Source: Bythopirellula polymerisocia
Lineage (GTDB): Bacteria; Planctomycetota; Planctomycetia; Pirellulales; Lacipirellulaceae
Direction: 5' to 3'
Assembly (NCBI RefSeq): GCF_007860015.1
Contig: NZ_SJPS01000002.1
Coordinates: 248,898 to 312,897 of the forward strand
DNA: 64,000 nt
Below, piece after piece: positions 47,962 to 64,000 of this stretch (positions within the stretch are counted from its first letter, which is position 1; every line of letters starts with the position of its first letter). Both the position numbers and the translations under genes were made by a program. Below the pieces are notes generated by a model. The model made no database searches. It saw only the letters and a list, made by a program, of their open reading frames with translations, and was not told where the DNA came from.

Positions 47962-47977
47962 GAAAAGCAATTAGATA

Positions 47978-48046
47978 TTAGCTATTAGTCCTTAGCCAGA
48001 ATGATCGGAAGACTTCTCTGGCTAAAGACTAACTGCTAATAGCTAA
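47978..48046. repeat. word-built inverted repeat A (TTAG type)
   Basis: TTAGCTATTAG (47978-47988) pairs perfectly with CTAATAGCTAA (48036-48046), and TTAGCCAGA (47992-48000) with TCTGGCTAA (48017-48025). The arms are made of repeated TTAG/CTAA words, with an unequal joint between the two stems. It starts 17 nt after the mraZ stop and could also end its transcript. Confidence 0.75.
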
Positions 48047-48057
48047 CACCTATATTG

Positions 48058-48629: not shown

Positions 48630-48647
48630 GAATCTTTCTGAAATGGT

Positions 48648-50345
48648 TTAGCGCGCCTTGCGGAGAAATGGAACCGTTTCTTCCTCTTCCGACGACGGTT
48701 TCTCTTGAGAATTCTCGTGTGGCCGATCACCTCGGGCCTGACGGTGTTCGACAGCTGCACCGACAAAACCGGCAAAGAGCGGGTGAGATGCTGTGGGCTT
48801 GGACTGAAACTCAGGGTGATATTGAACCGCTACAAACCAGGGATGTGATGGAAATTCGATTATTTCTACCAGCGTTCCATCGGGACTTGTCCCAGCCAGC
48901 AACAGTCCCTGATCAACGAGCCGATCACGATAATCATTATTCACTTCATAGCGGTGACGGTGCCGTTCGGAAACCTGCTCGGCCGAATAGCAGGTGGCAG
49001 CATGACTCCCAGCAGCTAGTTTCGTGGGCTGGGCACCGAGTCGCATCGTACCACCCATATCGGTAATCGTTTTCTGAGCGTCCAACAGACAGATCACAGG
49101 GTGACGCGTCTCTTTGTCGAACTCAGTGGAATGAGCACCCTCCAGGCCACATACATGGCGGGCAATTTCGACTACCGCACACTGCATCCCCAGACAAATC
49201 CCAAAGAAGGGAATGTTTTTCTCCCGGGCATAGCGAATCGCGGCGACCTTCCCCTCAATGCCCCGCTCGCCGAAACCACCGGGGACCAAGAGGCCATCAA
49301 AACCCGCGAGCAGTTTCTCGGCACCCTCGTCTTCGACATCTTCGCTACGAATGCGGGCTAGCCGAATCTGGGCTCCATTAGCCATTCCAGCATGATCGAG
49401 TGCTTCGTAAATCGACTTGTAGGCGTCTCGGTGTTCGGCATATTTCCCCACGACGGCGATGCTTACTTCGCAGTCGGGATTGCGAAGTCGCTTGAGCAGA
49501 TTTCGCCAATCCTCAAGGTCGGGCTCTGGCGTTTGCAGGCCAAGTTTGCGGCAGATCAAGCCATCCAGGTTGTTGTCCAGCAAGCTCAAGGGGACCTCGT
49601 AAATGGAAAAATCCTTATCTCGCTCTTCGATCACAGCTTCCAGCGAAATGTTGCAGAACAGGGCGATTTTCTCTCGGTCTTCACGGCTGATAGGCTGTTC
49701 GGTGCGGCAGATTAGAACATCGGGCTGGATACCGATCTCGCGAAGCTGTCCTACCGAGTGCTGAGTCGGCTTGGTTTTGAGTTCCCTGGCGGCCTTTAAG
49801 TAGGGAACCAGCGTAAGATGCAGATACAGGCAGTTTTCTTTGCCCACATCGAGAGCGAACTGGCGAATCGCCTCCAAGAACGGCAAGCTCTCGATGTCGC
49901 CCACAGTCCCGCCTATTTCTGTGATGACTACGTCGACTCGCTCATCGGTATCCTTGGCTACCTTGTGGATGACCGACTTGATTTCATTGGTGATGTGCGG
50001 GATCACCTGCACGGTTTTTCCCAGGAATTCGCCACGCCGTTCCTTGTTGATGACCGACTGATAAATTTGGCCGGTGGTATAATTCGAGTCGCGGGTGAGT
50101 GGAGAGCTAGTAAATCGCTCGTAATGGCCCAGATCGAGGTCGGTCTCACTGCCATCGTCCAGCACGTAGACTTCGCCGTGTTGGTAGGGGCTCATCGTGC
50201 CAGGATCGACGTTGATATAGGGATCAAGCTTCTGCATCCGCACGCTCAAACCCCGCCTTTCCAACAACATCCCGACCGACGCGCTAGTGAGCCCTTTTCC
50301 TAAGGAGCTGACAACACCACCGGTGACAAAAATGTGTTTGGTCAT
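48648..50345 (-). CDS. pyrG: CTP synthase PyrG
   Basis: A 565-residue enzyme that converts UTP to CTP using glutamine and ATP. The synthase domain starts [18 protein letters not shown] with the P-loop at residues 9-18, then [21 protein letters not shown] and [17 protein letters not shown]. The class I glutamine amidotransferase domain (about 290-540) shows [18 protein letters not shown] with the catalytic Cys, and [11 protein letters not shown] with the catalytic His. The length is normal; the last 20-25 residues are a polar extension. Together with cmk in this window it belongs to pyrimidine nucleotide metabolism. Confidence 0.97.
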
Positions 50346-50591
50346 GATTTTGATCTACCTTCCTGGCTGGCAATTGACCACGGCATCGCTTACCGGGTCA
50401 GGGGTCCCTGCAAGTGTGCATCTTAGCGAATTGCTAGCGGACTGGGGAGGGTCCCGTGGGGCAACCTTCCAGGCAGCCAATCGAGGCACGAAGCCTACAG
50501 CACAAAACTGGCCAATGCTATCCACGGCAGGTAGAATAGGGTGCGATCTACATTTATCTCTCATACGGAACTTCTGGGCGGGTGTTTTTCA

Positions 50592-51845
50592 ATGGTCAAG
50601 TTTCTGTGTGCCGCTCTGACCACCCTCGCCCTAGCCGATTTCTCCAGGGCTCAGATCTCCATCGATGGCTCTCTGGTGGGTGACGAGTCTGGGTATGGGA
50701 CAGCACTCTCTATCCAGAACACCAACACCCAATACGGCAATGCAACCAATGGCGATCCACGAATTGCCTCGAGCGGCTCGGAAATTGACCAAGTCTTCGC
50801 CCAAGTAGCCGACGGCAGGCTCAACGTGCTCATCACGGGCAACTTGGAGAGCAATTTCAACAAGCTCAATGTATTTATCGATTCGAATCCTGGTGGGATG
50901 AACCAGATCGAAGGAACCAGTCTGCCAACGCAGGTCGATCCGTTTTGCTGTTCCGGCAGCGGTGCATTGCAACGATTCAACGGATTACGCTTTGACAATG
51001 GTTTCGAGGCCGATCACTTTCTCACCTTTTCCAACGGAAATCACATTTTCGGAGCGGGAATAGATATCTGGACTCTCTCGGCCTACTACGCTGACCTCAC
51101 TCAAGGAACGGAAGGCAATAAAAGTGAGATTGGATTCCAACGATTTGCCGCTGGAGTGGAACCCGGATTCGGAATCGGCGTGCCCATCGATCAACTCAAC
51201 AATGGTTGTACCGGCCCCGCAGATACCACCTGTTCGCCACTTGAGCACGAATTCGCAGAACCTGTTGATCTGATCAACGATCCCACCAACAGCCGCAACC
51301 ATCGAAACTTTCTCAACAACATCGACATCCTGATGGCAATCGACAATAGCAACACGGCAGGGGTAAATGGCGGATCGGGAGCAGCAACCGGCAATCCGCA
51401 GAGCGTCCTGACAGGGATTGAGTTTTCCTTGCCCCTAGCGGTGCTCGGCAATCCTACCAGCGCAATCAAGCTTCTCGCGTTTATCGGCAACGGTGCTCAC
51501 AATCACGTCTCCAATCAGTTTTCAGGAGTCGGTGTCTTGCTGGGAAACCTCGGCAGCCCGGGGTCGGTGAATCTCGCAAACATCGCCGGCAACCAATTCG
51601 TAACGATTCCTATATCCCCGGCAGACTTTGACGGCGATGGTGATGTCGATGGACGAGATTTTTTATTATGGCAAAGAGGTGGATCGCCCGCTGAATTGGG
51701 GCCAGCGGACTTGGCACTTTGGCAAGCTCAGTACGCATCCGTTGGAGGGGCACCGCCATCGGCTACCCGAGTTCCAGAACCCTACTTCATCAGCTGGGTG
51801 ATTCTGGGACTTTGGCCAATAAGACTTGGTCCTAGGCGATTCTAA
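50592..51845 (+). CDS. PEP-CTERM protein with dockerin-like repeat, function unknown
   Basis: 417 residues from the ATG at 50592, chosen because a signal peptide (to about SRAQ, residue 21) starts there. The mature part has QVADGRLNVLITGNLESNF and LNVFIDSNPGGMNQIEG near the start and VLTGIEFSLPLAVLGN later, beta-rich and without a recognised domain. Cys pairs (FCCSGSG, CTGPADTTC) may form disulfides. A dockerin-like loop (DFDGDGDVDGRDFLLWQ, then LGPADLALWQAQY) precedes VPEP, a rather polar short helix and RRF. The final helix contains Trp and Pro, so the sorting signal is atypical. It stands alone, away from the main array. Confidence 0.75.
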   Translation: MVKFLCAALTTLALADFSRAQISIDGSLVGDESGYGTALSIQNTNTQYGNATNGDPRIASSGSEIDQVFAQVADGRLNVLITGNLESNFNKLNVFIDSNPGGMNQIEGTSLPTQVDPFCCSGSGALQRFNGLRFDNGFEADHFLTFSNGNHIFGAGIDIWTLSAYYADLTQGTEGNKSEIGFQRFAAGVEPGFGIGVPIDQLNNGCTGPADTTCSPLEHEFAEPVDLINDPTNSRNHRNFLNNIDILMAIDNSNTAGVNGGSGAATGNPQSVLTGIEFSLPLAVLGNPTSAIKLLAFIGNGAHNHVSNQFSGVGVLLGNLGSPGSVNLANIAGNQFVTIPISPADFDGDGDVDGRDFLLWQRGGSPAELGPADLALWQAQYASVGGAPPSATRVPEPYFISWVILGLWPIRLGPRRF

Positions 51846-52048
51846 CGACGTATCCGGAGACATCTGCTACCAGGTCCGATCCCAGCTAGCAATCGAACCG
51901 ATCTTGACCCGTTCGGCTGATTGGGACAAATTCAGGCCGTTTCCGGGATTCGAATCCGCATCCTGGAAACATGAATCACGACCCAGGTCCGAGCTATCGG
52001 CGCTCGGCCACCCCAACTATTTCCCTGTGCAAATGGAGGTGCACATCT

Positions 52049-52666
52049 ATGAAACGCGAATTGGATCTCGCCCGGCAATTGCTGCTGGACATCGAATCTC
52101 GGGGGCCTGACTGCTCAGTGAGCGTACTACGCCCTAATGTCAATCACAGCAGTGTGGCAAATCACGAATCGGAGGAGCGGATTCGGTACCACCTCCGCTT
52201 GCTGATCGATGCAGGCCTGTTGAAAGAAGTGGATCGCACGACGGCAGGCATTCCTTGCGTCCGCCTCACGCATGAGGGACATGAGCTCTTGGAGCTGGCC
52301 CGGCATGAAAATCTCTGGCGTGAAGCGAAATGGCTCTGCCAGGAACGAACGGGCGGCCTGTCGCTCACGGTGATTCGCACGTTTATGGTGCGACTAGCGG
52401 TTGGACCGAGCGGTACCCTCCCCCGGACAAGACGAACTTACCTGGCTCGACGTCCTAGGCTCGAGACAGATCGCATCGAGCCGATTCGCTATCTTCAGCG
52501 TGAGGACGCCGACGAGATGCTCGACGCAGACAGGTATCGCTATGTGCGGATTCGTCCAGAGATGACTGATCACTACGACCGCCCGTTGAGTTATGTGTCC
52601 GACTGGGATGAAGAACCCCGATTGAATGGCGAATTCGAAACCACGTTTCCGACCCAATTGATCTAA
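52049..52666 (+). CDS. DUF2513-domain protein
   Basis: A 205-residue protein. The ATG at 52049 is preceded by GGAGGT with 8-nt spacing, the strongest ribosome binding site in this region. Residues 1-115 match DUF2513, a winged-helix-like domain often found in phage and mobile-element proteins: MKRELDLARQLLLDIESRG, RIRYHLRLLIDAGLLKE, VRLTHEGHELLELARHE and WREAKWLCQERTGGLSL. The remaining 90 residues are Arg/Asp-rich with no recognised domain. A strong terminator follows, so it is a single-gene unit. No other mobile-element genes are seen nearby. Confidence 0.82.
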   Translation: MKRELDLARQLLLDIESRGPDCSVSVLRPNVNHSSVANHESEERIRYHLRLLIDAGLLKEVDRTTAGIPCVRLTHEGHELLELARHENLWREAKWLCQERTGGLSLTVIRTFMVRLAVGPSGTLPRTRRTYLARRPRLETDRIEPIRYLQREDADEMLDADRYRYVRIRPEMTDHYDRPLSYVSDWDEEPRLNGEFETTFPTQLI

Positions 52667-52698
52667 GCAGCGATCTACTCCAGATCGGTGATGAATCG

Positions 52699-52730
52699 GG
52701 GCGCTGCTCTCTAAAAGCAGCGCCCTTTTT
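52699..52730 (+). terminator. Rho-independent terminator of the DUF2513 gene
   Basis: GGGCGCTGCT (52699-52708) pairs perfectly with AGCAGCGCCC (52716-52725), followed by five T. It lies 33 nt after the stop at 52666. Confidence 0.9.
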
Positions 52731-52790
52731 CGTCGGTGAGCCGGGTCGTCCTCGATACCCGGCCAACTTGAAACCAGAAAGGCAAATTAA

Positions 52791-53267
52791 ATGTGCTTCA
52801 ATCAAGTTTTGATAGTGACGTTCGCAGCGATTCTTCTTCAGGCGCAGTCAGCACGCACGGCAACCCTTGAGAATGTTTCAACGGAGCCCAGCAACCCTGG
52901 GGCCGCGATTGCGTCGGACGAATCCCCCGCGAGCTCTCAGGATGCTGTCAATGTGGCCCTCGAATTACTGCGAATACAGGAGGAACTGGGAGGCTCGATC
53001 GTAAGTGATTTCGCGGAACCAGCGCAAGGCCATGCTCCTGTCTGGAATCCTCCCCCGGTCTCTTCCACTCCCCCAGCTCGACCCCATTCTAGTTGGGTTC
53101 CTCGGACGCTAAGCCCCGTCGAAGCTTTGCGGCAGACCTCCTGGCAGCTCGAACAATCGGCACATCTGTTGGAATCGCTCGACCTCTACGATCAGGCGGA
53201 TGCGGTGCGTGAGACGGCAGCTGTCCTACGCAGCGATGCCCGAGAAATTAAATCTCAGCAGAAATAA
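52791..53267 (+). CDS. small exported protein, function unknown
   Basis: A 158-residue protein. AAAGG lies 8 nt before the ATG. Residues 1-22 form a signal peptide (MCFNQVLIVTFAAILLQ, then SART). The middle is Pro/Ser-rich and probably disordered (PVWNPPPVSSTPPARPHS). A C-terminal helical hairpin (PVEALRQTSWQLEQSAHLLE, then YDQADAVRETAAVLRSDARE) carries A/L heptads and may be a coiled coil. No family is recognised. It follows a terminator, so it has its own transcript, and it precedes the pilus motor genes by about 350 nt. Confidence 0.7.
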   Translation: MCFNQVLIVTFAAILLQAQSARTATLENVSTEPSNPGAAIASDESPASSQDAVNVALELLRIQEELGGSIVSDFAEPAQGHAPVWNPPPVSSTPPARPHSSWVPRTLSPVEALRQTSWQLEQSAHLLESLDLYDQADAVRETAAVLRSDAREIKSQQK

Positions 53268-53277
53268 GCTAAAAACC

Positions 53278-53340
53278 GAGAGACGAGAGTCCAGAGTCAG
53301 AATTCTGGCACTAAACTCTCCTCTCTCAGCTCTGGTCTCT
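53278..53340. repeat. word-built inverted repeat B (GAGAG type)
   Basis: GAGAGACGAGAGTCCAGAG on the left and CTCCTCTCTCAGCTCTGGTC on the right are largely complementary, and CCAGA/TCTGG forms a local stem. It starts 11 nt after the stop at 53267. Confidence 0.6.
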
Positions 53341-53347
53341 TACATAA

Positions 53348-53415
53348 TTGACATTTTGCCTTATCACCAGTAGCCTAGAGACTATGCGGTGAGATGGGGA
53401 ATTACGTAACTCCCC
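53348..53415 (+). promoter_or_regulatory. candidate promoter and palindrome upstream of the first GspE/PilB gene
   Basis: TTGACA (53348-53353) with a weak -10 TAGCCT 17 nt further on. GGGGA (53396-53400) and TCCCC (53411-53415) enclose TTACGTAA, an interrupted palindrome that could be an operator or a leader hairpin. The rest of the spacer to 53614 holds no gene. Confidence 0.3.
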
Positions 53416-53614
53416 AGGGGGCACGGACTTCTGTTCAGAATGATCAACCAGTCGGGCTGGGAGATGGTTTGCGTTCTGGCGGGGCCGTTCTTGACTTGCT
53501 AAGTGGTGTTGGTTTCCTCGGCGGCTAATTAGCCGGTAGGAACGATCACTGCGAGCGCAACTTCTCCCCCTTTGCCGCCTGATCCGAGGCAAAGCGAACA
53601 GAGACTTATCTTCG

Positions 53615-55318
53615 ATGTCGAAATTTGGTGATTATCTCGTCAAGAAACGGGTCGTTGGTCCGGAGCAATTGCAAGAAGCCGAGACGGTGTCGACTTCTCG
53701 CCGGCTGAAGCTCCAAGAAGCGATCGTGCAATTAGGCTATGCCGCGCCCGAGCAGGTTTGGCGGGCCCTGGCCAATATGCACAAGTATGAGTACTACGAT
53801 CTCAACAGCGTGCCGATCCCGCCTGCAGTTGTGGAATTGGTGCCCGAGTCTGTTGCTCGCGAAAATGCCGTGATTCCATTCTCTGAGGACGACGGCAAGT
53901 TGAAAGTAATCGTGAGCGATCCCGAGGATTTCGAAACTTTTGACAAGCTTCAATTCATTCTCAACCGCAAAGTTGAAATCGGCATCGCCACCAAGGAAAG
54001 CATCCTCGAGGCCATCAACCGCAACTACGGCCAGATGGACGGCGAGTCTGCCGACTCGATGTTGCAGGAATTCACCGACACGGCCATCGATTTCACCGAA
54101 ACCGAAGGGGACGATGACGCAGGCGATGACGACGTGGTCGACGAGACCAGTGCCCCCATCGTGCGTCTTGTGCAGCTGATGATTACTGAAGCCGTGCAGT
54201 TGCGTGCTTCCGATATTCACGTCGAGCCCTTTGAAGATCGGGTCCGTATCCGCTATCGCATAGATGGTGTGCTGGTGGAACGCGACAGTCCTCCTCGGCG
54301 ACTCTTGGGAGCCTTGCTCTCCCGTATCAAAATCCTTGCCAGGATGGATATTGCCGAGCGTCGTCGCACCCAGGACGGACGTATTAAGATTACCGCTGGT
54401 GGAAAAGAACTCGACCTTCGCGTGAGTATGTTGCCCACGACGCACGGCCAATCCTGCGTCATGCGACTGCTGGACAAGGACAATATCAAGGTGGGAGTCC
54501 GACAATTGGGGCTCTCTGAGGCCGATTTCCGTAAATTCCGCACCCTCATTCGCCGTCCCAATGGCATTTTTCTCGTGACTGGCCCTACAGGTTCCGGAAA
54601 GACGACCACACTCTACGCTGCCCTCAACGAACTCAATCGACCTGACCGTAAGATTATTACTGCTGAGGACCCTGTCGAATATTATCTCCCTGGAATTAAC
54701 CAAGTAGAAGTTCGACACAACATCGGGCTAGACTTTGCTCTGATTATTCGTGCGATGTTGCGTCAGGCACCCAACATCATTCTGGTCGGCGAAATGCGCG
54801 ATCACGAGACCGCCTCGATGGGTATTCAAGCCTCGCTTACCGGTCACTTGGTATTTAGCACATTGCACACCAACGATGCCCCTGGGGCGATCACCCGCAT
54901 GGTTGACATGGGTGTGCCAGCCTATCTGGTAGCGGGAAGCATCATTGGTATTCTTGCCCAGCGGCTGGTGCGTGTGGTCTGCACCAAGTGTAAGCACCCT
55001 CATACTCCCACAGATGGCCAACTCGAATCGGCTGGCATCACTCCCGAGCAAGCTGCCTCGGCTACCTTCATGAAGGGGCAAGGATGTTCGCATTGCGGCA
55101 AGAGCGGCTATCGCGGCCGACTGGGCATCTTTGAGCTTATGATGATGAATTCCAAGGTTCGCGAACTTTCCTTCGCGGGAGCATCGACTCCTGAAATTCG
55201 CAAAGCGGCCATAAAATCTGGAATGACCACGCTTTACGACGACGGAATCCGCAAGGCCCTCGGGGGAATCACCACTTTGGAGGAGGTTTTCCGCGTCTCC
55301 AAGCGGACAGAAAGTTAG
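53615..55318 (+). CDS. GspE/PilB-family assembly ATPase (first copy)
   Basis: A 567-residue hexameric ATPase that powers pilus or pseudopilus extension. Residues 1-150 form an MshEN-like N-domain (FGDYLVKKRVVGPEQLQEAE), a fold that in relatives binds c-di-GMP. The N2 region has LRASDIHVEPFEDRVRIRYRIDGVL (about 193-217). The motor has Walker A GPTGSGKTTTL (about 325), an Asp box (KIITAEDPVEYYLPG), Walker B ILVGEMRDHETA and a His box (TGHLVFSTLHTNDA). CTKC and CSHC (about 456-496) bind zinc. Here GEMRD replaces the usual GEIRD. The MshEN domain suggests c-di-GMP control. It precedes pilT, with a 128-nt spacer. Confidence 0.93.
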   Translation: MSKFGDYLVKKRVVGPEQLQEAETVSTSRRLKLQEAIVQLGYAAPEQVWRALANMHKYEYYDLNSVPIPPAVVELVPESVARENAVIPFSEDDGKLKVIVSDPEDFETFDKLQFILNRKVEIGIATKESILEAINRNYGQMDGESADSMLQEFTDTAIDFTETEGDDDAGDDDVVDETSAPIVRLVQLMITEAVQLRASDIHVEPFEDRVRIRYRIDGVLVERDSPPRRLLGALLSRIKILARMDIAERRRTQDGRIKITAGGKELDLRVSMLPTTHGQSCVMRLLDKDNIKVGVRQLGLSEADFRKFRTLIRRPNGIFLVTGPTGSGKTTTLYAALNELNRPDRKIITAEDPVEYYLPGINQVEVRHNIGLDFALIIRAMLRQAPNIILVGEMRDHETASMGIQASLTGHLVFSTLHTNDAPGAITRMVDMGVPAYLVAGSIIGILAQRLVRVVCTKCKHPHTPTDGQLESAGITPEQAASATFMKGQGCSHCGKSGYRGRLGIFELMMMNSKVRELSFAGASTPEIRKAAIKSGMTTLYDDGIRKALGGITTLEEVFRVSKRTES

Positions 55319-55387
55319 TCCAACACAATTCTGAGCAATTAGAATAAGAGTTAGTAGAAAGCCGCGGCAAAACGCAACAAATAGCTG

Positions 55388-55402
55388 CGTTGCAGCGCAA
55401 CG
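55388..55402. repeat. hairpin in the spacer before pilT
   Basis: CGTTGC (55388-55393) and GCAACG (55397-55402) form a perfect 6-bp stem with loop AGC. An upstream CGCAAC word can pair with the same bases, so alternative foldings are possible in the leader of pilT. Confidence 0.45.
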
Positions 55403-55446
55403 ACTGTTAGCCGCTTCGCAATGCGACACACGGAACAAAGAGACTT

Positions 55447-56550
55447 ATGGGCACTATTCTTATCGACAAACTGCTCTCCGCGCAAGTTAAGCAAGGAGCG
55501 AGCGATTTGCATATCACGGTGGGCCAACCACCTGTGCTCCGGTTGCATGGTCACATGCAAAAGCTCAAGACCAAAGTGCTGGAGCCAGCCGACACCATGG
55601 GCCTGATGAAAAGCATCACCCCAGACCGCTGCCAGCAAGAATTCCAAGAAACCGGCAGTACCGACTTTGGGTTCGCCTTCGGAGATCAAGCCCGCTTTCG
55701 CGTGTCAGTGTTTCGCCAACGTGGCATGGTGGCCATGGTGCTGCGGCAGATTCCCGTGCATTTGATGAGCATGGAGGATCTTAAGATACCCCCTGTCTTC
55801 AAAGACCTTATCATGCGACCGCGCGGGTTGATTCTCGTGACCGGTCCGACGGGATCAGGAAAATCAACTTCCCTGGCCGCGATGATAGATTATCTGAACA
55901 CGACGATCGATCATCACATCATCACTATCGAAGACCCGATCGAGTTTTACCACAACCATCGCAAATCGACGATCAACCAGCGCGAGGTCGGCGTCGATGT
56001 AACGTCCTTCGCCGAAGCAATTCGCCGCGCTTTGCGACAGGACCCCGACGTGATCCTCGTCGGTGAGTTGCGCGACCTGGAAACGATCGAAGCTGCCATC
56101 ACCGCGGCAGAAACAGGTCACGTCGTGTTCGGCACCCTGCACACGAGTAGTGCGGCTGGCACAATCAACCGCGTTATCGACGTTTTTCCCACGAATCAGC
56201 AGGACCAAATTCGCACTCAATTGGGAAGTTCAATCATCGGCATTCTCGCCCAGCAATTGATACCGAAAATCGGCGGAGGCCGTATTGCGGCGTTCGAGAC
56301 CCTGGTGGTGACCCCGGGTATTGCGAACCTGATCCGCGAAAACAAGATTTTTAGAATCACTTCCTCGATCCAAACAGGCGCCAAGCACGGCATGAAATTG
56401 CTCGACGACCACTTGTTCGAGCACTGGAAGAATGAGCTTGCCACCAAAGAAGACGTGCTCGCCAAAGCAAACATCCCCGATGAACTCGCCCGGCGGATCG
56501 CTTCCGCCGAACGCGGAGTCTTCGATGAACCCGAACCGGGCGAAGAGTGA
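55447..56550 (+). CDS. pilT: pilus retraction ATPase PilT
   Basis: A 367-residue protein of normal PilT length. Residues 1-110 form the N-terminal domain (LLSAQVKQGASDLHITVGQPPVLRLHG, typical of PilT). The motor has Walker A VTGPTGSGKSTS (about 134-145), the Asp box HHIITIEDPIEF, Walker B VILVGELRDLETIEAAITAAETGH (PilT signature AETGH) and the His box FGTLHTSSAAGTINR. A C-terminal AIRRALR/LLDDHLFEHWKN part follows. It depolymerises pili for twitching or DNA uptake. A PilT between two PilB-type ATPases favours a true retractile type IV pilus over a pure secretion system. Confidence 0.95.
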   Translation: MGTILIDKLLSAQVKQGASDLHITVGQPPVLRLHGHMQKLKTKVLEPADTMGLMKSITPDRCQQEFQETGSTDFGFAFGDQARFRVSVFRQRGMVAMVLRQIPVHLMSMEDLKIPPVFKDLIMRPRGLILVTGPTGSGKSTSLAAMIDYLNTTIDHHIITIEDPIEFYHNHRKSTINQREVGVDVTSFAEAIRRALRQDPDVILVGELRDLETIEAAITAAETGHVVFGTLHTSSAAGTINRVIDVFPTNQQDQIRTQLGSSIIGILAQQLIPKIGGGRIAAFETLVVTPGIANLIRENKIFRITSSIQTGAKHGMKLLDDHLFEHWKNELATKEDVLAKANIPDELARRIASAERGVFDEPEPGEE

Positions 56551-56641
56551 TGGAAGAATTTATGATTGATGAAAACACTACCGGAAGCTGACGCATCCGG
56601 CTCCCCTACCATCCACTAACCTCTAACCGCTAACCTCTATT
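56551..56641. repeat. word-built spacer element C
   Basis: The left part repeats the GATTTATGATTGATGA-like words of element G at 61.3 kb. The right part (56614-56641) is CTAACCTCTAACCGC-TAACCTCTA, matching the right arm of element D. CCGGA/TCCGG pairs in the middle. The ATG of the next gene follows 1 nt after the element, with no Shine-Dalgarno sequence. Confidence 0.55.
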
Positions 56642-56642
56642 C

Positions 56643-58358
56643 ATGGCCTTACGTCGCATTGGACAAATCCTGGTTGACCTCGGATATATTTCCGACGAGC
56701 AGCTCGAAACGCTGGTCGAAGAACAAGAGCAACGCCCAGGTCAGCTCTTGGGGCAGGTCGCTATGGACATGGGACTGGTAAACGACGATCAGCTTGTCCA
56801 GGCCCTCGGCGAGCAGATGTCGCTGCGCACCGTAGCGCTCGGGGATTTGACTATAAATCCTGAAACACTGGAAAAAGTCACCGAGCCAATGGCCCAGATG
56901 TATCGCATCATCCCCATCGAGTTCGACGACAACACACTTACCATCGCCATGTGCGATCCACAGAACCTGAGCGTTCAAGACGAACTTCGCACATTCCTCG
57001 GATACAACATCCGCGTCGCCGTGGCGACGGAACCCGCTGTTTTGGCCGCCCTAGACCGATATTACGGTGAGAACACTGAGAGTGTCGAAAGCATCGTCCA
57101 CGACCTGGAGATCGACAAGGACCTCGCAGCGGCAGTTGCCGCGGCTGAGGGGAATTCGGTCGATCTGGCAAGCGTCGAGGCCATGGCCGACAGCGCACCG
57201 GTCCGCAAACTGCTGAACATGGTGCTGCTGCTGGCAATCAAAGATCACGCGAGCGACTTGCACTTCGAGCCATTTGAAGACGAATTCCGCATCCGCATCA
57301 AGGCCGACGGGGTGCTCTATGAAATGGTTCCTCCACCTCGCCACCTCGCATTTGCAATTACCACTCGTATCAAGGTGATGGCCAACCTCGATATCGCCGA
57401 GCGTCGCATGCCTCAGGACGGACGCATCGAGCTCACAGTGGGTGGCCACCCGGTCGATCTGCGTGTGAGTGTGCTCCCCACGATGTTTGGTGAGAGCGTC
57501 GTAATGCGGGTACTCGACCGGTCGGTCGTGTCGCTTGACCTGCAAAAAGTAGGCATGAATGAAGACTTGCTCGCCATTTTCCGGGACGTGATTTCCAAAC
57601 CCAATGGCATCGTCCTGGTGACAGGCCCAACGGGTTCCGGAAAAACGACCACGCTCTACTCGGCTCTCAATGAGCTCAATGTCATCTCGGATAAATTGAT
57701 CACGACCGAGGACCCTGTCGAGTACGACATGGAAGGTATCATCCAGGTGCCAATCGATGCCGCGATCGGCAACACGTTTGCACAATGTCTGCGAGCGATT
57801 CTCAGGCAAGACCCGGACAAGATCCTGGTCGGCGAAATTCGCGACCTCGAGACCGCCGAGATTGCCGTCCAGGCCTCCCTCACGGGGCACATGGTGTTCA
57901 GCACATTGCACACAAACGACGCCCCCAGCACGATTACCCGCATGAAGGATATGGGGATTCCCACGTTCCTGATCACTGCCACAGTCGAGGCCATCCTGGC
58001 CCAGCGGCTGGTCCGCAAGGTCTGTGCCAAGTGCCGAGAAGAATATGTCCCGTCCAAGGAAATTCTCGACGATTTGGAGCTTTCTACCGCAGATCTGAAG
58101 GGAAAGAAATTTTATCGTGGCTCTGGCTGCGAAAACTGCAACAATACAGGATATAAGGGGCGCGTGGGACTTTTCGAACTCATGATCATGAATAACGAGC
58201 TTCGAGAGATGATCATGCAAAACTGTTCAACCGACGAACTCCGCAGAGCAGCACAGAAGGGGGGCATGTTCACCTTGCGTGATGCCGGTATGAAAGTTGC
58301 CTACGAAGGAGTCACCACTCCCGAAGAAGTTGTCCGAGAAACGATCATCGATGGATAG
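56643..58358 (+). CDS. GspE/PilB-family assembly ATPase (second copy)
   Basis: A 571-residue ATPase paralogous to the one at 53615. N-terminal MshEN-type domain (RRIGQILVDLGYISDEQLETL, then GQVAMDMGLVNDDQLVQAL), then KDHASDLHFEPFEDEFRIRIKADG. Walker A GPTGSGKTTTLY lies at about 327; the Asp box is KLITTEDPVEYDM, Walker B ILVGEIRDLETAEIAVQASLTGH and the His box FSTLHTNDAPSTI. Zinc cysteines are CAKC and CENC (about 462-500). It keeps the canonical GEIRD, so it is the more standard extension motor. The ATG directly follows a word repeat and lacks a ribosome binding site. Confidence 0.94.
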   Translation: MALRRIGQILVDLGYISDEQLETLVEEQEQRPGQLLGQVAMDMGLVNDDQLVQALGEQMSLRTVALGDLTINPETLEKVTEPMAQMYRIIPIEFDDNTLTIAMCDPQNLSVQDELRTFLGYNIRVAVATEPAVLAALDRYYGENTESVESIVHDLEIDKDLAAAVAAAEGNSVDLASVEAMADSAPVRKLLNMVLLLAIKDHASDLHFEPFEDEFRIRIKADGVLYEMVPPPRHLAFAITTRIKVMANLDIAERRMPQDGRIELTVGGHPVDLRVSVLPTMFGESVVMRVLDRSVVSLDLQKVGMNEDLLAIFRDVISKPNGIVLVTGPTGSGKTTTLYSALNELNVISDKLITTEDPVEYDMEGIIQVPIDAAIGNTFAQCLRAILRQDPDKILVGEIRDLETAEIAVQASLTGHMVFSTLHTNDAPSTITRMKDMGIPTFLITATVEAILAQRLVRKVCAKCREEYVPSKEILDDLELSTADLKGKKFYRGSGCENCNNTGYKGRVGLFELMIMNNELREMIMQNCSTDELRRAAQKGGMFTLRDAGMKVAYEGVTTPEEVVRETIIDG

Positions 58359-58360
58359 GA

Positions 58361-58518
58361 ATAGAGGTTAGAGATTGGAGAATGAACGCTCTGTCATTTA
58401 TCGTACATCTCTCTTCTCTCCATTGGAACGAAGGAGTTGGGGTTAGTGGTCAGAGGTTAAAGGTTAGCGGGAAAATTCTTACTTCCCCTAGCCTCTAACC
58501 TCTAACCCCTAACCTCTC
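58361..58518. repeat. word-built inverted repeat D (TTAGAGG type), two units
   Basis: The first unit (58361-58424) has AGAGGTTAGAGATTGGAGAA opposite TCTCTCTTCTCTCCATT. The second (58437-58518) is the clearest in the window. The left arm, GGTTAGTGGTCAGAGGTT and on to 58474, matches the reverse complement of the right arm (58482-58517, CTAGCC-TCTAACC-TCTAACC-CCTAACC-TC) at about 85%. It fills almost the whole spacer between the second ATPase and the PilC/GspF gene, whose ATG at 58526 has no Shine-Dalgarno sequence. Confidence 0.8.
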
Positions 58519-58525
58519 AATTACT

Positions 58526-59854
58526 ATGCCAACATTTCAATTTGAAGCGATGGATTCGACCGGCGCTGAGATCAAAGACGTGATCGAAGCGGCGACCGAG
58601 GAAGATGCCCAAGCCACGATTCGGCAGATGGGGTACTTCGTCACCAAGATCTCCGTCAAGAAGGCACGCAAGAAATCCGAGGGGGGACCCGGCAAGAAGA
58701 AACGTGGCTTCGTCTTCGGCGGCGTCAAATCAAAAGATCTCACCGCCTTCACCCGCCAACTCTCGATTCTTCAAGACGCGGGCCTGCCGATCTTGCGGAG
58801 CTTACGCATCCTCGGCGAACAGTCCAAGCCGGGCCGACTCAAGTACTCGCTTGAAGACACCTGCGAAGCGATCGAAGCCGGCGACACGCTCTCCGAAGCG
58901 ATGGCCAAGGCCCCCAAGGCGTTCGACCGACTTTATGTGAACATGATCAAGGCGGGCGAAGCGGGTGGTGCCCTGGAAATCATTCTGCAGCGCCTCGCAG
59001 ACTTCAAAGAACGGTCTGAATCGCTCAAGCGCAAGGTCAAGGGTGCGATGATCTATCCGATCGTCGTCGTGTCCGTGGCCGTCGGTATCTTGACGTTCAT
59101 CATGATTAAGATCGTGCCGAGTTTCCAAGCGATTTTCGACGATTTCGATCTCGATCTGCCGCTCATGACGGTTTATCTGATTGCCTTCTCCCAGTGGTGC
59201 GTCAACTATTGGTACCTGATCCCCGGCGTGCCGATTGCTATCTGGCTCTTGATCAAACTGATTCGCAAGTTCAAGGCCGGCCGCATGGGCTGGGATCAGT
59301 TCACAATCAAGGTTCCCATCTTCGGCAGTCTGATCGAGAAGAACATCATGGCCCGCACCTCGCGAACCCTGGGGACGCTTATCTCCTCGGGTGTGCCAAT
59401 CCTCGAAGCCCTGAACATTACCCGTGAGACCGCCGGCAATGCTGTGTTCGAAAAACTCTATGCCCGCATCAGCGAGCGGATCCGCGAGGGTGACGCGATT
59501 GCCCAGCCGATGAAGGAATACTCCAAGCTCAGCTTCCACCCGGTCGCCGCCTTCTTCTGGTTTTGCTTCATCGGTGGCCCCATCGGGTTATTGATCTACA
59601 TGATGAAATACCGCCAACGGGTCGTCGACGACATTGTCGTGAACATGGTCGACGTCGGCGAAGAGACAGGCGAACTCGATACGATGCTCTACAAGGTGGC
59701 CGACACCTATGACGAAGAAGTCGCAGTGCTCACCGATGGCCTCACCAAGCTGATGGAACCGCTGCTGATCTTGTTCCTAGGTGGTGCCGTCGGCTTCATC
59801 GTGATCGCCCTCTTCATCCCTCTGGTGGAACTAATCAACGGACTAACGGGATAA
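58526..59854 (+). CDS. PilC/GspF-family inner-membrane platform protein
   Basis: A 442-residue protein. It starts PTFQFEAMDSTG, the usual beginning of PilC (FxYxAxDxxG). A basic linker (KKARKKSEGGPGKKKRGF) is followed by two repeated cytoplasmic helical domains: DLTAFTRQLSILQDAGLPILRSL at about 73, and MARTSRTLGTLISSGVPILEALNITRET at about 275. Membrane helices lie at about 172-195, 220-240 and 415-437, the last ending FIPLVELINGLTG. The platform binds the ATPases and rotates or guides pilins into the membrane. An unusual insertion near residue 340-370 contains an extra Phe/Trp-rich hydrophobic segment (FFWFCFIGGPIGLLIYMM). Start codon flanked by element D. Confidence 0.93.
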   Translation: MPTFQFEAMDSTGAEIKDVIEAATEEDAQATIRQMGYFVTKISVKKARKKSEGGPGKKKRGFVFGGVKSKDLTAFTRQLSILQDAGLPILRSLRILGEQSKPGRLKYSLEDTCEAIEAGDTLSEAMAKAPKAFDRLYVNMIKAGEAGGALEIILQRLADFKERSESLKRKVKGAMIYPIVVVSVAVGILTFIMIKIVPSFQAIFDDFDLDLPLMTVYLIAFSQWCVNYWYLIPGVPIAIWLLIKLIRKFKAGRMGWDQFTIKVPIFGSLIEKNIMARTSRTLGTLISSGVPILEALNITRETAGNAVFEKLYARISERIREGDAIAQPMKEYSKLSFHPVAAFFWFCFIGGPIGLLIYMMKYRQRVVDDIVVNMVDVGEETGELDTMLYKVADTYDEEVAVLTDGLTKLMEPLLILFLGGAVGFIVIALFIPLVELINGLTG

Positions 59855-59861
59855 GGAGCAA

Positions 59862-59936
59862 GTTGCGAGGCGCGAGTTTCGAGTCACGAGTAACAGTATT
59901 GTCTCGCGTCTCGCAACCCGACACTCGCGCCTCTCC
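59862..59936. repeat. word-built inverted repeat E (CGAG type)
   Basis: GCGAGGCGCGAGTTTCGAGT (left) matches the reverse complement of the right arm (CTCGCGTCTCGCAACCC then GACACTCGCGCCTC) with few mismatches. It starts 7 nt after the PilC/GspF stop. The rest of the spacer holds a small AGGGCT/AGCCCT hairpin (59990-59995/60005-60010) and nothing else recognisable. Confidence 0.75.
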
Positions 59937-60151
59937 TGTACTATTTCGCTACAATAAACTGCGCTGGCAGCACAGGGTGTTGGGTACTGAGGGCTGCTTC
60001 AACTAGCCCTACAGGGGGGTATGAATCGCATTTTGAGACTTTCCAGGCCTCTGAAAATGAGATTTTTCCATTTCCCGGCAAATAGTCCCTGCTAGCCCCC
60101 TTGCGCACATGATTTGCACGTAATTCAACCAGTTAAACAGGAGATTCTCAA

Positions 60152-61285
60152 ATGGCACGGAAAAAAGAACAGAAGATAGAGGTTAGAGGCTGGAGGCTAG
60201 AGGCTTGGAATCCAACTAGCGCCCAGCGTCTAGCGTCTAGCGCCTTCACGCTCACCGAACTCTTGGTCGTGATCACGATCATCGCGATCTTGGCGGCCTT
60301 GATCACCGCCGGTGCTATGAACGCGCTGAACGCTTCCAAACGGGCCCGTATCTCTCTGGAGATCAACCAACTGGGACAGTCCATCGAAGAGGTCAAGAAC
60401 AAGTACGGGGCGTATCCGCCGAACGGAATGAGTTTCCAAGGTGAATCCAACTACAGTGGAACTGTTGTCTCTCAACTTACGACCAGCGACTTCGAGCGAA
60501 TGTTCAAGAAGGCGTTTCCTCGTAGCCAGGAACCTGTTGGTTTGATCCGTCGATTGGGTGGAGCAACGGGAAATCAGAATCCAGGCGATCCTTCCTTACT
60601 ACCAAACGGCATGAATTCCGCCGAAGCCGTTTATTTTTGGCTTGGTGGATTTAGTGAGGATACTCAGTATCCTCTCTCCGGTCCTGGCGGACCTGCCTTT
60701 GATCCCACTTCAACGACCGGGGAAGTGCTCGAAAGCCGTAATCGCGAATACGAGTTTGATCTCGGGCGGCTTGGGCCACGAAATGACAGTGGTGTTTTCC
60801 ACGATACTGACAATGGCGGGCAAGGGCGATATGTAACGTATGATAATCCAAAAAATACGGGGCCTGCAAGACTTCGCATCAACCTGTGGCGGTACAACCC
60901 GTCAGGTTCCGAACGGCCTTACTTGTATTTCGATGCCTCTCGTCACGATCCCATTGATTACGATCAAAATTTGACAGGTCTGGGGCAGAACGACTCGGTT
61001 CAAATCTACGCCCTCAAAAAACTTCGCGAAGGTTTTAGTACTTCGAACACTCCTGCCCCCAAGGACATTGTGTTCGTGAACAAAGGTAAGTTCCAAATAC
61101 TCCATTCTGGCTTAGACGATGCCTGGGGCAGTTTTAAGCCTTTCAGCATTCTTAATGCATCTGGCAATGTTAATACCGGCGATGCCAGTGGAGTGTTCCT
61201 CTTCCCCACCGGCCCCTTCACTGGCGACGTGGCCGATACGCTCACCAACTTCACTCCCGGCACACTGGAGAGCGCACAAGAATAA
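60152..61285 (+). CDS. GspG-like pseudopilin 1 with repeat-encoded long leader
   Basis: A 377-residue protein; AGGAG lies 8 nt before the ATG. The prepilin cleavage site is Ala31/Phe32 (SSA-FTLTELLVV), with Glu at +5. The usual Gly at -1 is replaced by Ala. Residues 8-30, between the basic MARKKEQ start and the site, are encoded by a word-built repeat (element F), making a 31-residue leader. After the hydrophobic helix comes the GspG-like ISLEINQLGQSIEEVKNKYGAYPPNG segment. Residues 70-377 are a larger, unassigned head. It is the first of four pseudopilins and overlaps the next by one base (TAATG). Confidence 0.88.
   Translation: MARKKEQKIEVRGWRLEAWNPTSAQRLASSAFTLTELLVVITIIAILAALITAGAMNALNASKRARISLEINQLGQSIEEVKNKYGAYPPNGMSFQGESNYSGTVVSQLTTSDFERMFKKAFPRSQEPVGLIRRLGGATGNQNPGDPSLLPNGMNSAEAVYFWLGGFSEDTQYPLSGPGGPAFDPTSTTGEVLESRNREYEFDLGRLGPRNDSGVFHDTDNGGQGRYVTYDNPKNTGPARLRINLWRYNPSGSERPYLYFDASRHDPIDYDQNLTGLGQNDSVQIYALKKLREGFSTSNTPAPKDIVFVNKGKFQILHSGLDDAWGSFKPFSILNASGNVNTGDASGVFLFPTGPFTGDVADTLTNFTPGTLESAQE
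60174..60245. repeat. word-built inverted repeat F inside pseudopilin 1
   Basis: GAGGTTAGAGGCTGGAGGCT on the left and AGCGCCCAGCGTCTAGCGTC on the right are imperfect inverted arms of repeated GCTAGA/TCTAGC words. The whole element is in frame and encodes leader residues 8-31. Confidence 0.75.
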
Positions 61286-62439
61286 TGTCTGATTTAGGAT
61301 TTGTGATTGATGATCTGAACACGCGTTCTAGGCGACACGCTCTCCTTGCGCGCACAAATCATAAATTCGCAATCATAAATCAGAAATCGCGTCTAGGCGT
61401 CACCCTGATCGAACTTCTGATCGCCATCGCGATCATCGCCACGCTCAGTGCCGTGTTCCTAGGGGCATCCCGCTCCGCCATGGAGTCCGCCCGCGCTGCC
61501 CGCACCAAAACCACGATCAGCAAACTCCACACGCTGCTCATGGAGCAGTATGCGAGTTACATGACGAGAACTATTGATCTCGCCCCAGGCTTTAAACAAT
61601 CAATTAATGGCCTCCCAGCCAATGTCCGGACAGCAGTAACGCAAGATATGAGGCTGTTGGCATTGCGTGAACAAATGAAGTACGAAATGCCTGATCATTG
61701 GTCAGACCTAAATGATAATCCAGTCATGTTGTTCAGAAAGCCTGCGGTCGCCAGTATTTATGATCGGCGTTATCAGAAAGTCTTGAACTGGGCGAATGGC
61801 GACTCAGACAAATTAGCTAAAGTAGTCCAACATCAAGCTGCTGAATGCTTATATCTAACAATCATGTATCTCACAGGAGATGGTGAGGCGAGAACGCTCT
61901 TCAGTTCCCAGGACATCGGTGATACCGATGGAGATGGTGCTCCTGAATTCCTTGACGGTTGGGGCAATCCTATTGCTTGGGTTCGCTGGCCTGCTGGTTT
62001 TGTCGCACGTTCCTCTCTTATGGCCGGCGACACAACGACGGATCATGATCCTTTCGATCCCTTCAAAAGAAACCTTGCTGATGTGCTTCCTGCAGGAGGA
62101 AGTGCCTATCCGTTGAATGATGTGTTCGTTAGACAAGCGGTAGACCAGTTAAGAGGAACTAACAATTCTACGTCCAATCAGTTAACCGGATTTCGTCTGG
62201 TGCCTTTAATTTATTCGTCGGGTCCGGATGGGATTTCAGACATCAATACTGCTGGCAATAGGAGCATAATTTCAAGTGGAATTGCGTTGGATCCATATGC
62301 TATTGATCCGGCTTTCTCCACTTTATCATTTTCTCCTACGACTCCCAATTATCAGACAGGTCTCCCCTCTGATGGTAACAACGATGGCGAAGACAACTCC
62401 GTCGACAACATCCACAACCACGTACTTGATAATAGATGA
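61285..62439 (+). CDS. pseudopilin 2 with repeat-encoded long leader
   Basis: A 384-residue protein whose ATG overlaps the TAA of pseudopilin 1, so translation is probably coupled. The cleavage site is Gly38/Val39 (RLG-VTLIELLIAIAII), with Glu at +5; Val at +1 is less common than Phe or Met. The leader is 38 residues, nearly all encoded by element G. The hydrophobic helix is followed by ASRSAMESARAARTKTTISKLHTLL, a typical pilin helix. The C-terminal head has TGDGEARTLFSSQDIGDTDGDGAPEFLDGWG, a possible calcium-binding loop like that of GspG/GspJ pseudopilins. A minor or structural pseudopilin cannot be decided. Confidence 0.85.
   Translation: MSDLGFVIDDLNTRSRRHALLARTNHKFAIINQKSRLGVTLIELLIAIAIIATLSAVFLGASRSAMESARAARTKTTISKLHTLLMEQYASYMTRTIDLAPGFKQSINGLPANVRTAVTQDMRLLALREQMKYEMPDHWSDLNDNPVMLFRKPAVASIYDRRYQKVLNWANGDSDKLAKVVQHQAAECLYLTIMYLTGDGEARTLFSSQDIGDTDGDGAPEFLDGWGNPIAWVRWPAGFVARSSLMAGDTTTDHDPFDPFKRNLADVLPAGGSAYPLNDVFVRQAVDQLRGTNNSTSNQLTGFRLVPLIYSSGPDGISDINTAGNRSIISSGIALDPYAIDPAFSTLSFSPTTPNYQTGLPSDGNNDGEDNSVDNIHNHVLDNR
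61287..61393. repeat. word-built inverted repeat G inside pseudopilin 2
   Basis: GATTTAGGATTTGTGATTGA on the left opposes AATCATAAATTCGCAATCAT and AAATCAGAAATCG on the right (imperfect, about 70%). CGCGTTCTAGGCG and CGCGTCTAGGCG form a further direct repeat within it. In frame, it encodes leader residues 2-37. Confidence 0.7.
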
Positions 62440-62443
62440 GGAA

Positions 62444-62472
62444 GGCGCTAGGCGCTGGTTGATAGGCGCTAG
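62444..62472. repeat. word repeat (GGCGCTAG type) before pseudopilin 3
   Basis: GGCGCT occurs three times (GGCGCTA, GGCGCTGG, GGCGCTAG) in 29 nt right after the stop of pseudopilin 2. The word is shared with the TAGCGCC words of element F in reverse complement. Confidence 0.55.
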
Positions 62473-62518
62473 TAAGAGAGATAGAGGGGCAAGGGGCAGA
62501 GAACAGAGGAACAGAACC

Positions 62519-63916
62519 ATGAACAACAATAGAGAAAAAGTTACGAGCTTCGGGTTTCGAGCTTCGAGAAAAGAATCTATTTCCCCACTCGCAACTCGCG
62601 CCTCGCAACTCGCGCCTCACGGAATGACCCTCATCGAGCTGATGGTCGTCGTGGTGATTCTGGTCACGTTGGTGGCCGGGGTGCTGCCGCTGGTCTCGCC
62701 CAATAACGACGCCCGCAAAATCCGCGAGGCCGCCCGGGGCTTGAAGACGTTCCTCATGTCGGCCCAGGCCGAGGCAGCCCGCACGGGTCGACCCGTGGGC
62801 ATCGGTTTTCGCGAAACAAGTTCTGGAGACACCTCCACAAACACCCCTGGCAGCGGTATCGCGATCGAGGCCTATCAATTGGCCGTGCCGGCACCCTTTT
62901 CGGGGTCCAGCAACGAATCGCGCATGGGAGTCCAAGAGATCACCGATTTTCTCGCGCAAAAGGGACTTACCGACAACAAAATCCTCTACGGACCAGTAAC
63001 GGGCGGAAATGGGAGCAAAATATACCCAAAATTCTATGGAGCAAGACTCTATGTCGTGAGCAGTATGGTTGCGACAACTCTTGCCGGCGATCCTCTCCCC
63101 CCCGGAATGATCCGCGTAGGGGATATTGTGAAAGTCGGAGGCAAGCGGTTCAAGATTATCGACGACCCCCGCCAGAGCAATGAACCCTTGAATCCCCAGG
63201 ATCCTTATAGCGAGAAGTTTCTGGATCCTAGGCAGAACTCAGCTGATTATCAGAATCGCCTGATTTGTGTCTGGCTCGATGAAGCCAGTCAGGGCCAGGG
63301 GAAGGTGCCTCCGCTTGCTAACTCTCCCGCCGGAGAGCGCTATCAGATCGCGCGACAACCTGCGGGCACCGCGGCATTCAGCGTCCAGCCTTCCTTCCAG
63401 CTCCCCGCCGGGATTGCGATCGATATGCAGGCCTCGGGATACGAAGCAGATGGAGAACCCGTCTTTTTCGTAGAAACCAATGTCACAAGTCCGACAGCGA
63501 TTTCTGCCGTGATTTTGTTCTCGCCGAATGGGGGAATCGAGACTGTGTGGAAGAACGGAAACGAAATCAAAAATGCCGAAAAGTTGTTCCTGCTCGTTGG
63601 CCGGGGAGAAAACGGTGGTTTAGTGTTAGGCGATCCCTATACCGAGCAAGATTGTGTTTGGTACCTAGGCCAGAATTTCTCGGAGGAAAAACTCAAGGAA
63701 GTTCGCTCGAAGGTCAACTGGCTCAATCTTGAGAGCCGCTGGCTGATGCTCGACTCGGCTGGTGGTCGACTGCGGGTAGTGGAAAACGCACTTGTTAACC
63801 CGAGCGACGTAACCACAAGACCCGGTGATGAATCCTACAACGCCATGGTTGAACAAATCGAACTGGCCCACGGCTTAGCCCACGTCCACACAGATGTCGG
63901 AGGACAGAAACCGTGA
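62519..63916 (+). CDS. GspH/FimT-like pseudopilin 3 with repeat-encoded long leader
   Basis: 465 residues from the ATG at 62519, 9 nt after GAGG; longer in-frame starts would run back across the upstream word repeat. The cleavage site is Gly35/Met36 (APHG-MTLIELMVVVVIL), with Glu at +5. The leader, 35 residues, contains element H (residues about 9-34). GspH-like motifs follow: REAARGLKTFLMSAQAEAARTGRPVGIGF, the FimT/GspH helix and first strand. The head is much larger than in GspH (about 170 residues), with an unassigned C-terminal half. The stop overlaps the GTG start of the next gene (GTGA). Confidence 0.88.
   Translation: MNNNREKVTSFGFRASRKESISPLATRASQLAPHGMTLIELMVVVVILVTLVAGVLPLVSPNNDARKIREAARGLKTFLMSAQAEAARTGRPVGIGFRETSSGDTSTNTPGSGIAIEAYQLAVPAPFSGSSNESRMGVQEITDFLAQKGLTDNKILYGPVTGGNGSKIYPKFYGARLYVVSSMVATTLAGDPLPPGMIRVGDIVKVGGKRFKIIDDPRQSNEPLNPQDPYSEKFLDPRQNSADYQNRLICVWLDEASQGQGKVPPLANSPAGERYQIARQPAGTAAFSVQPSFQLPAGIAIDMQASGYEADGEPVFFVETNVTSPTAISAVILFSPNGGIETVWKNGNEIKNAEKLFLLVGRGENGGLVLGDPYTEQDCVWYLGQNFSEEKLKEVRSKVNWLNLESRWLMLDSAGGRLRVVENALVNPSDVTTRPGDESYNAMVEQIELAHGLAHVHTDVGGQKP
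62543..62620. repeat. word-built inverted repeat H inside pseudopilin 3
   Basis: ACGAGCTTCGGGTTTCGAGC then TTCGAG on the left, against CTCGCAACTCGCGCC written twice on the right (62587-62620). The arms are weakly complementary and use the same CGAG/CTCG words as element E. It encodes leader residues 9-34 in frame. Confidence 0.7.
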
Positions 63917-64000
63917 TTAGAAAGAGGGGCTTAGTTTCGAGTTTCGAGTTTCGAGTTTCGAGCCAGAATTTCTCGCTCGCGCCTCGCTACTCGTGCCTCG
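63913..64000 (+). CDS. start of a fourth pseudopilin-like gene (cut by window end)
   Basis: GTG at 63913 overlaps the TGA of pseudopilin 3, and the frame stays open to the window end (29 codons). The translated start is MIRKRGLVSS, then FEFRVSS and SLAPRYSCL: basic, Ser-rich and repeat-encoded, as in the three preceding leaders. The expected prepilin site would lie just beyond the window. The overlap, the position and the repeat support a fourth pseudopilin; identity is inferred, not seen. Confidence 0.6.
   Translation, partial: MIRKRGLVSSFEFRVSSQNFSLAPRYSCL
63934..64000. repeat. word-built inverted repeat I with a perfect 7-nt tandem
   Basis: GTTTCGA is repeated exactly four times (63934-63961). 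It is followed by CTCGCTCGCGCCTCGC and TACTCGTGCCTCG (63971-64000), whose reverse complement has the CGAGGCGCGAG words of the left arm of element E. It is still inside the leader-coding part of the fourth pseudopilin. Confidence 0.75.

Follow-up and report, generated by a model that had tools for sequence, protein, structure and literature searches.

Heptad inverted repeats in the leaders of four pseudopilins

The window analyzed here comprises 64,000 nucleotides (nt) of the Bythopirellula polymerisocia genome (contig NZ_SJPS01000002.1, positions 248,898 to 312,897), and the genes of interest are the last ones of an operon of the type II secretion/type IV pilus-like kind, as recognized from Pfam profile matches and gene order. 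In this operon the leaders of four consecutive pseudopilin genes contain inverted repeats of 7-nt words (heptads), in which a G-rich 5′ arm faces a C-rich complementary 3′ arm (Table 1). The words are TAGAGGC-like against CTAGCGY in leader 1; GATTTGT-like against AATCATA-like in leader 2, whose loop includes CTTGCGCGCAC; and CGAGYTT against CTCGCRM (CTCGCAA, CTCGCGC) in leader 3. Leader 4 holds two tandem copies of the element, with GAGTTTC facing CTCGCAA-like words and with runs of perfect GAGTTTC, and the leader of the GspK-like gene shows CTAGCGC words. All four elements set in 7 to 20 nt past the start codon, and a Shine-Dalgarno-like stretch lies upstream of each of the four pseudopilin starts.

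From the sequence and the prepilin motif, leaders of 31, 38, 35, and 60 residues are predicted for genes 1 to 4, with A, G, G, and A as their last residues and with putative cleavage before F32, V39, M36, and I61. The type III prepilin signal is described as a leader ending in G or A, followed by a hydrophobic segment, in many cases with Glu at +5 (PMC10191384, in the portion available to us, as for every article cited here by PMC number), and the operon's pseudopilins carry this signal, genes 1 to 3 as PF07963 matches and gene 4 by motif only. Neither gene 4 nor the GspK-like gene matches a Pfam profile, and both are named from motif and gene order. The original prediction, made from the letters of the window, had given the first three leader lengths, counted from the ATG codons at 60152, 61285, and 62519, and these agree with ours; the 8-residue leader that it gave for the protein at 22605 likewise fits the open reading frame there.

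The imperfect inverted repeats that it described were recovered mechanically, and their words are exactly 7 nt long. Our strict detector, which looks for three words with a common 4-mer and a complementary array within 100 nt, finds leaders 2 and 3 and the part of leader 4 inside the window, while leader 1 needs a relaxed setting. In 459 kb of the B. polymerisocia genome it reports 16 clusters at period 7 and no more than 2 at any period among 5, 6, and 8 to 12, in 859 kb 19 clusters at period 7 versus 0 to 4 at periods 5, 6, 8, 9, and 10, and on Markov shuffles no clusters. With two mismatches allowed, periods 6 and 9 equal period 7 in cluster count, so that only the strict setting discriminates period 7. 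Ranked against all 105-nt stretches in 400 kb of the genome, the self-match at lag 7 is 0.551 in leader 1 (fraction of genomic stretches, 2.8e-5), 0.398 in leader 2 (2.4e-3), 0.531 in leader 3 (6.3e-5), and 0.541 in the GspK leader (4e-5), and no genomic stretch is as high as leader 4 (0.622).

That the repeats do not stem from duplication of one leader, as the original prediction had held, is borne out here: words differ between genes, and a similarity search found no near-identical copies of elements 1, 2, and 3 in the genome. Their other genomic matches are 72 to 96% identical and mostly cover a single arm; leaders 3 and 4 are 72 to 78% similar. Recent copy-and-paste within the genome is therefore rejected for elements 1 to 3.

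The leaders are translated and their words differ among relatives

GspF was found in all 59 genomes searched. A first set of operons, from 20 family members and B. polymerisocia itself, yielded 75 prepilin leaders in 20 genomes (one operon, that of G019, gave none by motif). Over the 110 nt preceding the cleavage site, their self-match averages 0.449 at lag 7 and 0.404 at lag 14, whereas all remaining lags between 3 and 15 give 0.26 to 0.29; in the mature part the mean at lag 7 is 0.265. A lag-7 self-match of at least 0.42, which we use as the mark of a heptad leader, is reached by 46 of the 75.

The leaders are translated through the heptad element. Over the 90 nt before the cleavage site the coding frame is open in 70/75 leaders, versus 37 and 41 for the other two frames, and stop codons number 5 in the coding frame and 47 and 44 in the others. 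A column of TAG-like words in leader 1 and the GspK leader reads TAG in 10/12 out-of-frame places and in 0/4 in-frame places (Fisher, 0.008), where TGG or CAG stands instead. The repeats thus lie inside translated leaders, as the original prediction had proposed, and starts downstream of the repeats, which it had named as an outcome that would speak against it, are contradicted by the openness of the coding frame.

The alignment of the relatives' operons, which it had also suggested, shows elements at the same place with mostly different words. Between B. polymerisocia and its relative G005, leader identity is 0.30 to 0.40 versus 0.57 to 0.68 in the mature part over its initial 300 nt, and leader 4 of the relatives G029 and G017 aligns without gaps, with words altered in both arms. 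Conserved leader residues, the other adverse outcome that had been named, were not seen in most pairs, but in one pair the words are kept (leader 3 of G028 and G015, discussed below). Counted as exact words in the 59 relatives, GCGGAATGCGGAATGCGG occurs in 13/59 genomes (the reversed control has 1 match), CATCAAACATCAAACATC in 6, and CTAGCGCCTAGCGCCTAGCG in 1. We considered that each genome might favor one word class, and dropped this idea: arms match those of other leaders in the same genome at 18.6 versus 16.2 for unrelated ones (p 0.11).

Two loci of other kinds may be added. In a genome from another family (G036), all four pseudopilin leaders share an almost identical sequence, another type of repeat in the position of the heptads, and in genome G055 long near-perfect hairpins without heptads occupy operon leaders and upstream gaps.

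Operon junctions are a hot spot for the elements

Of the 19 strict clusters in the 859 kb sampled, 8 fall within 21 kb (53278 to 74627), for which the density of the remaining 11 over 838 kb predicts 0.28 (P 7e-10); the borders were drawn post hoc, 2 of the 8 clusters are situated past the GspK gene, and a 20-kb part of the sample had been chosen for a word match. Several of these elements are non-coding (Table 1). The gap between GspE and GspF carries one in 13/21 genomes under the relaxed setting, in 11 under the strict setting, and in none at periods 5, 6, and 8 to 11, with words that vary among genomes. Leaders of other prepilins in the B. polymerisocia genome offer a comparison. This genome has 85 PF07963 matches, 3 of which are the operon pilins; one of the remaining 82 lacks the motif, and among the 81 leaders left none reaches a lag-7 self-match of 0.42 (mean, 0.253; highest, 0.408). 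The absence from these leaders, together with the non-coding GspE-GspF elements, indicates that operon junctions, and not leader tolerance alone, set the placement.

Table 1. Genes and heptad elements of the operon region, in window coordinates
Feature	Position	Strand	Remark
Heptad inverted repeat, convergent gap	47971..48053	+	words shared with relative G005
Heptad inverted repeat upstream of first T2SSE gene	53278..53340	+	
Three T2SSE ATPase genes	starts 53615, 55447, 56643		Pfam
Heptad inverted repeat, GspE-GspF gap	58441..58515	+	non-coding
GspF/PilC gene	58526..59854	+	T2SSF, PF00482; operon marker for the search in relatives
Heptad inverted repeat directly past GspF stop codon	59859..59933	+	non-coding
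Pseudopilin gene 1	60152..61285	+	PF07963; ATG 60152
Heptad inverted repeat, leader 1	60171..60245	+	first mature codon 60245
Pseudopilin gene 2	61285..62439	+	PF07963; ATG 61285, overlapping gene 1
Heptad inverted repeat, leader 2	61285..61389	+	begins at overlapping ATG of gene 2
Heptad words TAGGCGCTGGT/TAGGCGCTAGT	62449..62473	+	one arm only, shortly past gene 2 stop
Pseudopilin gene 3	62519..63916	+	PF07963; ATG 62519
Heptad inverted repeat, leader 3	62542..62619	+	
Pseudopilin gene 4	start GTG 63913	+	cut by window end; prepilin motif only
Leader 4, first of two tandem heptad inverted repeats	63930..64000	+	second ends at about 64085 in extended locus L001
GspK-like gene, 1991 residues	after gene 4, in extended locus L001		from gene order

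Several non-coding elements start at most about 11 nt from the stop codon of the gene upstream, namely, those at 53278 and 59859 and, in the extended locus on the window's scale, at 71378 and 73492. The element in the convergent gap keeps its TTAG words in G005 at about 75% DNA identity, unlike the leader elements, and is perhaps held as a two-way terminator. Heptads are also dense elsewhere in the genome, at C4:360-392 kb and C1:1172-1192 kb, two places that were picked through matches and left uncounted. The former (L347/L348, C4:360001-392000) is a second dense set with many arrays at gene junctions, in a putative polysaccharide/exosortase cluster, so named from its protein sequences. At another locus (L016:19077-19153), a 1204-codon open frame includes, toward its 3′ end, a heptad inverted repeat that is in frame, with the other two frames closed.

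Upkeep of the elements and competing explanations

The arms of an element are concordant. In the 46 heptad leaders, the arm match within an element is 26.3, compared with 16.5 when arms are exchanged among genomes at the same gene (p 9e-8) and 18.6 when they are exchanged among the leaders of a single genome (p 3e-4). We consider it somewhat better than an even bet (about 0.55) that these are DNA-level inverted repeats at the junctions of one operon, which would maintain themselves by slippage and arm-to-arm template switching while the reading frame runs through them. In the 5′ array the 7-nt words would be G-rich, approximating GADDKNN (judged by eye, with several word classes), and would face their complements across a short loop; word number would shift by slippage, 7 nt per step, and hairpin-primed template switching, a process that makes and mends hairpins (PMC8794818), would spread mutations among the words and between the arms, the words being rewritten while period and symmetry persist. 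With the start codon upstream, translation through the element would turn it into the prepilin leader, and the prepilin peptidase would then remove this heptad-encoded leader. Selection would act mainly to keep the frame open and the cleavage region intact. If this holds, the operon would provide a natural test system for the imitation, by template switching, of the compensatory changes that are usually regarded as proof of RNA structure. Where prepilin leaders in such genomes are long, they may derive from repeats and need not be conserved signals.

Several observations weigh against such self-maintained repeats. A second set of 20 further operons (69 leaders, 14 from four more members of the family and 55 from other families) contains only 4 heptad leaders, 1/14 in the family and 3/55 outside it. 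Word turnover is not universal, and 2 of the 11 leader pairs compared are at least as well conserved in the leader as in the mature part: leader 3 of G028 and G015 keeps its words at 0.74 DNA identity versus 0.62 in the mature part, and leader 2 of G029 and G017 stands at 0.62 versus 0.59. No clean empty site or single step is readable in relatives at 72 to 75% DNA identity, and leaders 3 and 4 of relative G010 consist mainly of one arm. Simple slippage does not explain handedness, with the G-rich arm on the 5′ side in 18 of the 19 clusters of the B. polymerisocia genome and, in the family operons of the first set, in 45 elements, the opposite in 5 and equality in 4. Folding is stronger than expected in a part of the first set, where the median fold z is −1.10 and 19/75 leaders lie below −3. 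Lastly, the loop motif TGCGC occurs in 24/43 leader elements versus 2/58 non-leader elements (Fisher, 1e-9), a comparison in which GspK leaders count as non-leader, as their site escapes the motif, and in which the relaxed setting admits some chance clusters. GC-rich loops raise its chance rate (shuffles expect 10.6/46; observed, 25), and it is also present in 12/29 non-heptad leaders of the first set and in 15/69 leaders of the second (5/14 in the family, 10/55 in others). Together, handedness, persistence at the same junctions, and the TGCGC loop, none of which simple slippage accounts for, hint at a function or an enzyme.

Control of translation by an RNA hairpin had been put forward in the original prediction. 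A fuller form of it, with a leader hairpin that sets translation or stability of each cistron and hence pseudopilin stoichiometry, any words serving in the stem and a TGCGCGC loop being recognized, appears unlikely to us. Concordant arms and onset shortly after the start codon speak for it, as does a fold z below −3 in 19/75 first-set leaders versus 0/75 mature stretches and 0/81 other prepilin leaders (4/69 in the second set, with 1/14 in the family and 3/55 in others). TGCGC is spread over all three reading frames (10/9/7) and is therefore not a peptide motif, which also agrees with recognition as RNA. However, selection on an mRNA stem should leave G·U mismatches outnumbering A·C, and 34 leader stems show the opposite in the sense strand, 25 G·T versus 49 A·C; 19 non-leader stems show 17 versus 23. 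Stems are thus not seen to be kept by G·U as well as Watson-Crick changes, as in a structured RNA, and selection for an mRNA hairpin is not supported, with the qualification that the A·C excess in leaders may come partly from stop avoidance in the 3′ arm. Leader 3 has a fold z of +1.0 (leaders 1, 2, and 4: −1.8, −2.0, and −2.7), some leaders are mainly one-armed, similar elements sit in non-coding and convergent gaps, and no Rfam family matches positions 47000 to 64000 at gathering thresholds. We regard as unlikely a combined explanation, in which a self-rewriting heptad class found in many phyla, its G-rich arm nearly always leading in the one family judged for handedness, was adopted in that family as a generator of the secretion operon's prepilin leaders and writes their peptides, and in which its TGCGCGC loop, present mostly in leader copies, is a nucleic-acid signal read by a protein or RNA to set or switch pseudopilin output.

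The original prediction had also offered a tolerated landing site, which our results bear out only in part. As a sole explanation, a mobile or expanding heptad element kept where it is harmless, with no function and no operon preference beyond tolerance, seems rather improbable: leader residues are mostly unconserved, the frame stays open, elements also occupy gaps, and some leaders of other families hold other repeats, but the 81 other prepilin leaders of the genome, expected to be equally tolerant, all stay below the heptad threshold, the GspE-GspF element is non-coding, and the lack of near-identical copies of elements 1 to 3 speaks against recent copy-and-paste. Phase variation, by which gain or loss of one word in a leader would shift the frame and toggle a pseudopilin, looks highly improbable. 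Seven is not a multiple of 3, so that each one-word step is a frameshift, leader 4 has its runs of perfect GAGTTTC, and the second element-rich place presumably is a cluster for polysaccharide synthesis; however, most arrays are degenerate, which lowers slippage, and the coding frame is open in nearly all leaders. A DNA uptake signal was considered without a dedicated test and dropped, as words vary within and between genomes.

Known heptad elements and wider distribution

The elements consist of 7-nt words in tandem, some positions of which are fixed and others free, in complementary arrays across a loop, and are best read as belonging with two described groups, their placement in translated leaders being a variant. 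In Nostoc, stem P6b of the tRNA-Leu(UAA) group I intron is built of heptanucleotides, of Class I (TDNGATT) or Class II (NNTGAGT). Like the elements here, it is a stem of degenerate 7-nt words whose class differs among relatives at one place, and the words GATTKNN and GAGTNNT are common to both; its length changes by 7-nt repeats, as proposed for ours. Unlike them, it lies in intron RNA, whereas ours occupy protein-coding leaders as well as gaps of the operon and show a larger number of word classes (PMC4476775). Heptads of Xanthomonas (GGGAATC) and Nostoc (GGGGAYT), with 70 and 75 convergent inverted cases in two genomes, are also degenerate words mostly at the same sites with variable words (PMC4692102; Rehm et al., 2015). 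They were read as G-quadruplex tandem repeats, whereas the words here seldom contain GGG, and the available portion of that article holds no mention of a leader placement. At least four uninterrupted GGG tracts, as required for a G-quadruplex, are not found in our elements, where TAGAGGC, GATTTGT, and GAGTTTC form no GGG series. The Nostoc intron stems and the Xanthomonas G-quadruplex heptads would thereby be joined in a single class of elements that follows a shared word grammar, and a member of this class is here observed inside translated sequence, with concordant arms. In the literature searched, which lay mostly outside subscription journals, we found no account of prepilin leaders that contain heptad inverted repeats.

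Other repeats share single traits. The TAACTGA heptamer of Beggiatoaceae is a 7-nt unit near start codons in several phyla, but is one fixed word in direct repeats, inverted in a single case (PMC4679880). In Geobacter metallireducens, GGGACCG forms a tandem (four-fold) heptanucleotide element within and between genes, though as one family of 49 copies found by similarity, with no inverted form stated in the available text (PMC2700814). Palindromes in nematomorph mitochondrial genes are inverted repeats within translated sequence, but are perfect, up to 284 bp long, and encode conserved protein parts in their arms (PMC6649704). Repetitive extragenic palindromes (REP/REPIN) and miniature inverted-repeat transposable elements (MITE) are short intergenic hairpin repeats whose copies share sequence, whereas leader elements 1 to 3 have no close copy and share no palindrome with dispersed copies in the genome; both kinds are named in PMC4692102.

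A cross-phylum scan for three GATTNNN words facing three AATCNNN words gave at least 117 stretches. Its pattern fixes the orientation, and handedness was judged in the family of B. polymerisocia only. Among the 80 loci listed are Chloroflexi, Planctomycetota, Acidobacteria, Bacteroidota, Cyanobacteria, Verrucomicrobia, Xanthomonadaceae, Omnitrophota, and others, and the 83 elements in them have the word GATTKNN (K in 148/166), in agreement with Nostoc Class I TDNGATT. None of these 83 elements adjoins a prepilin motif. Of the 80 loci, 36 were followed up, and GspF was found in 26 of the 36 genomes; the 30 loci obtained contain 8 prepilin motifs, one of them with a heptad leader. This one belongs to a pilin beside GspF (L325) in the genome of an acidobacterial locus (L085) and has NPQSAIG repeats and a lag-7 self-match of 0.79.

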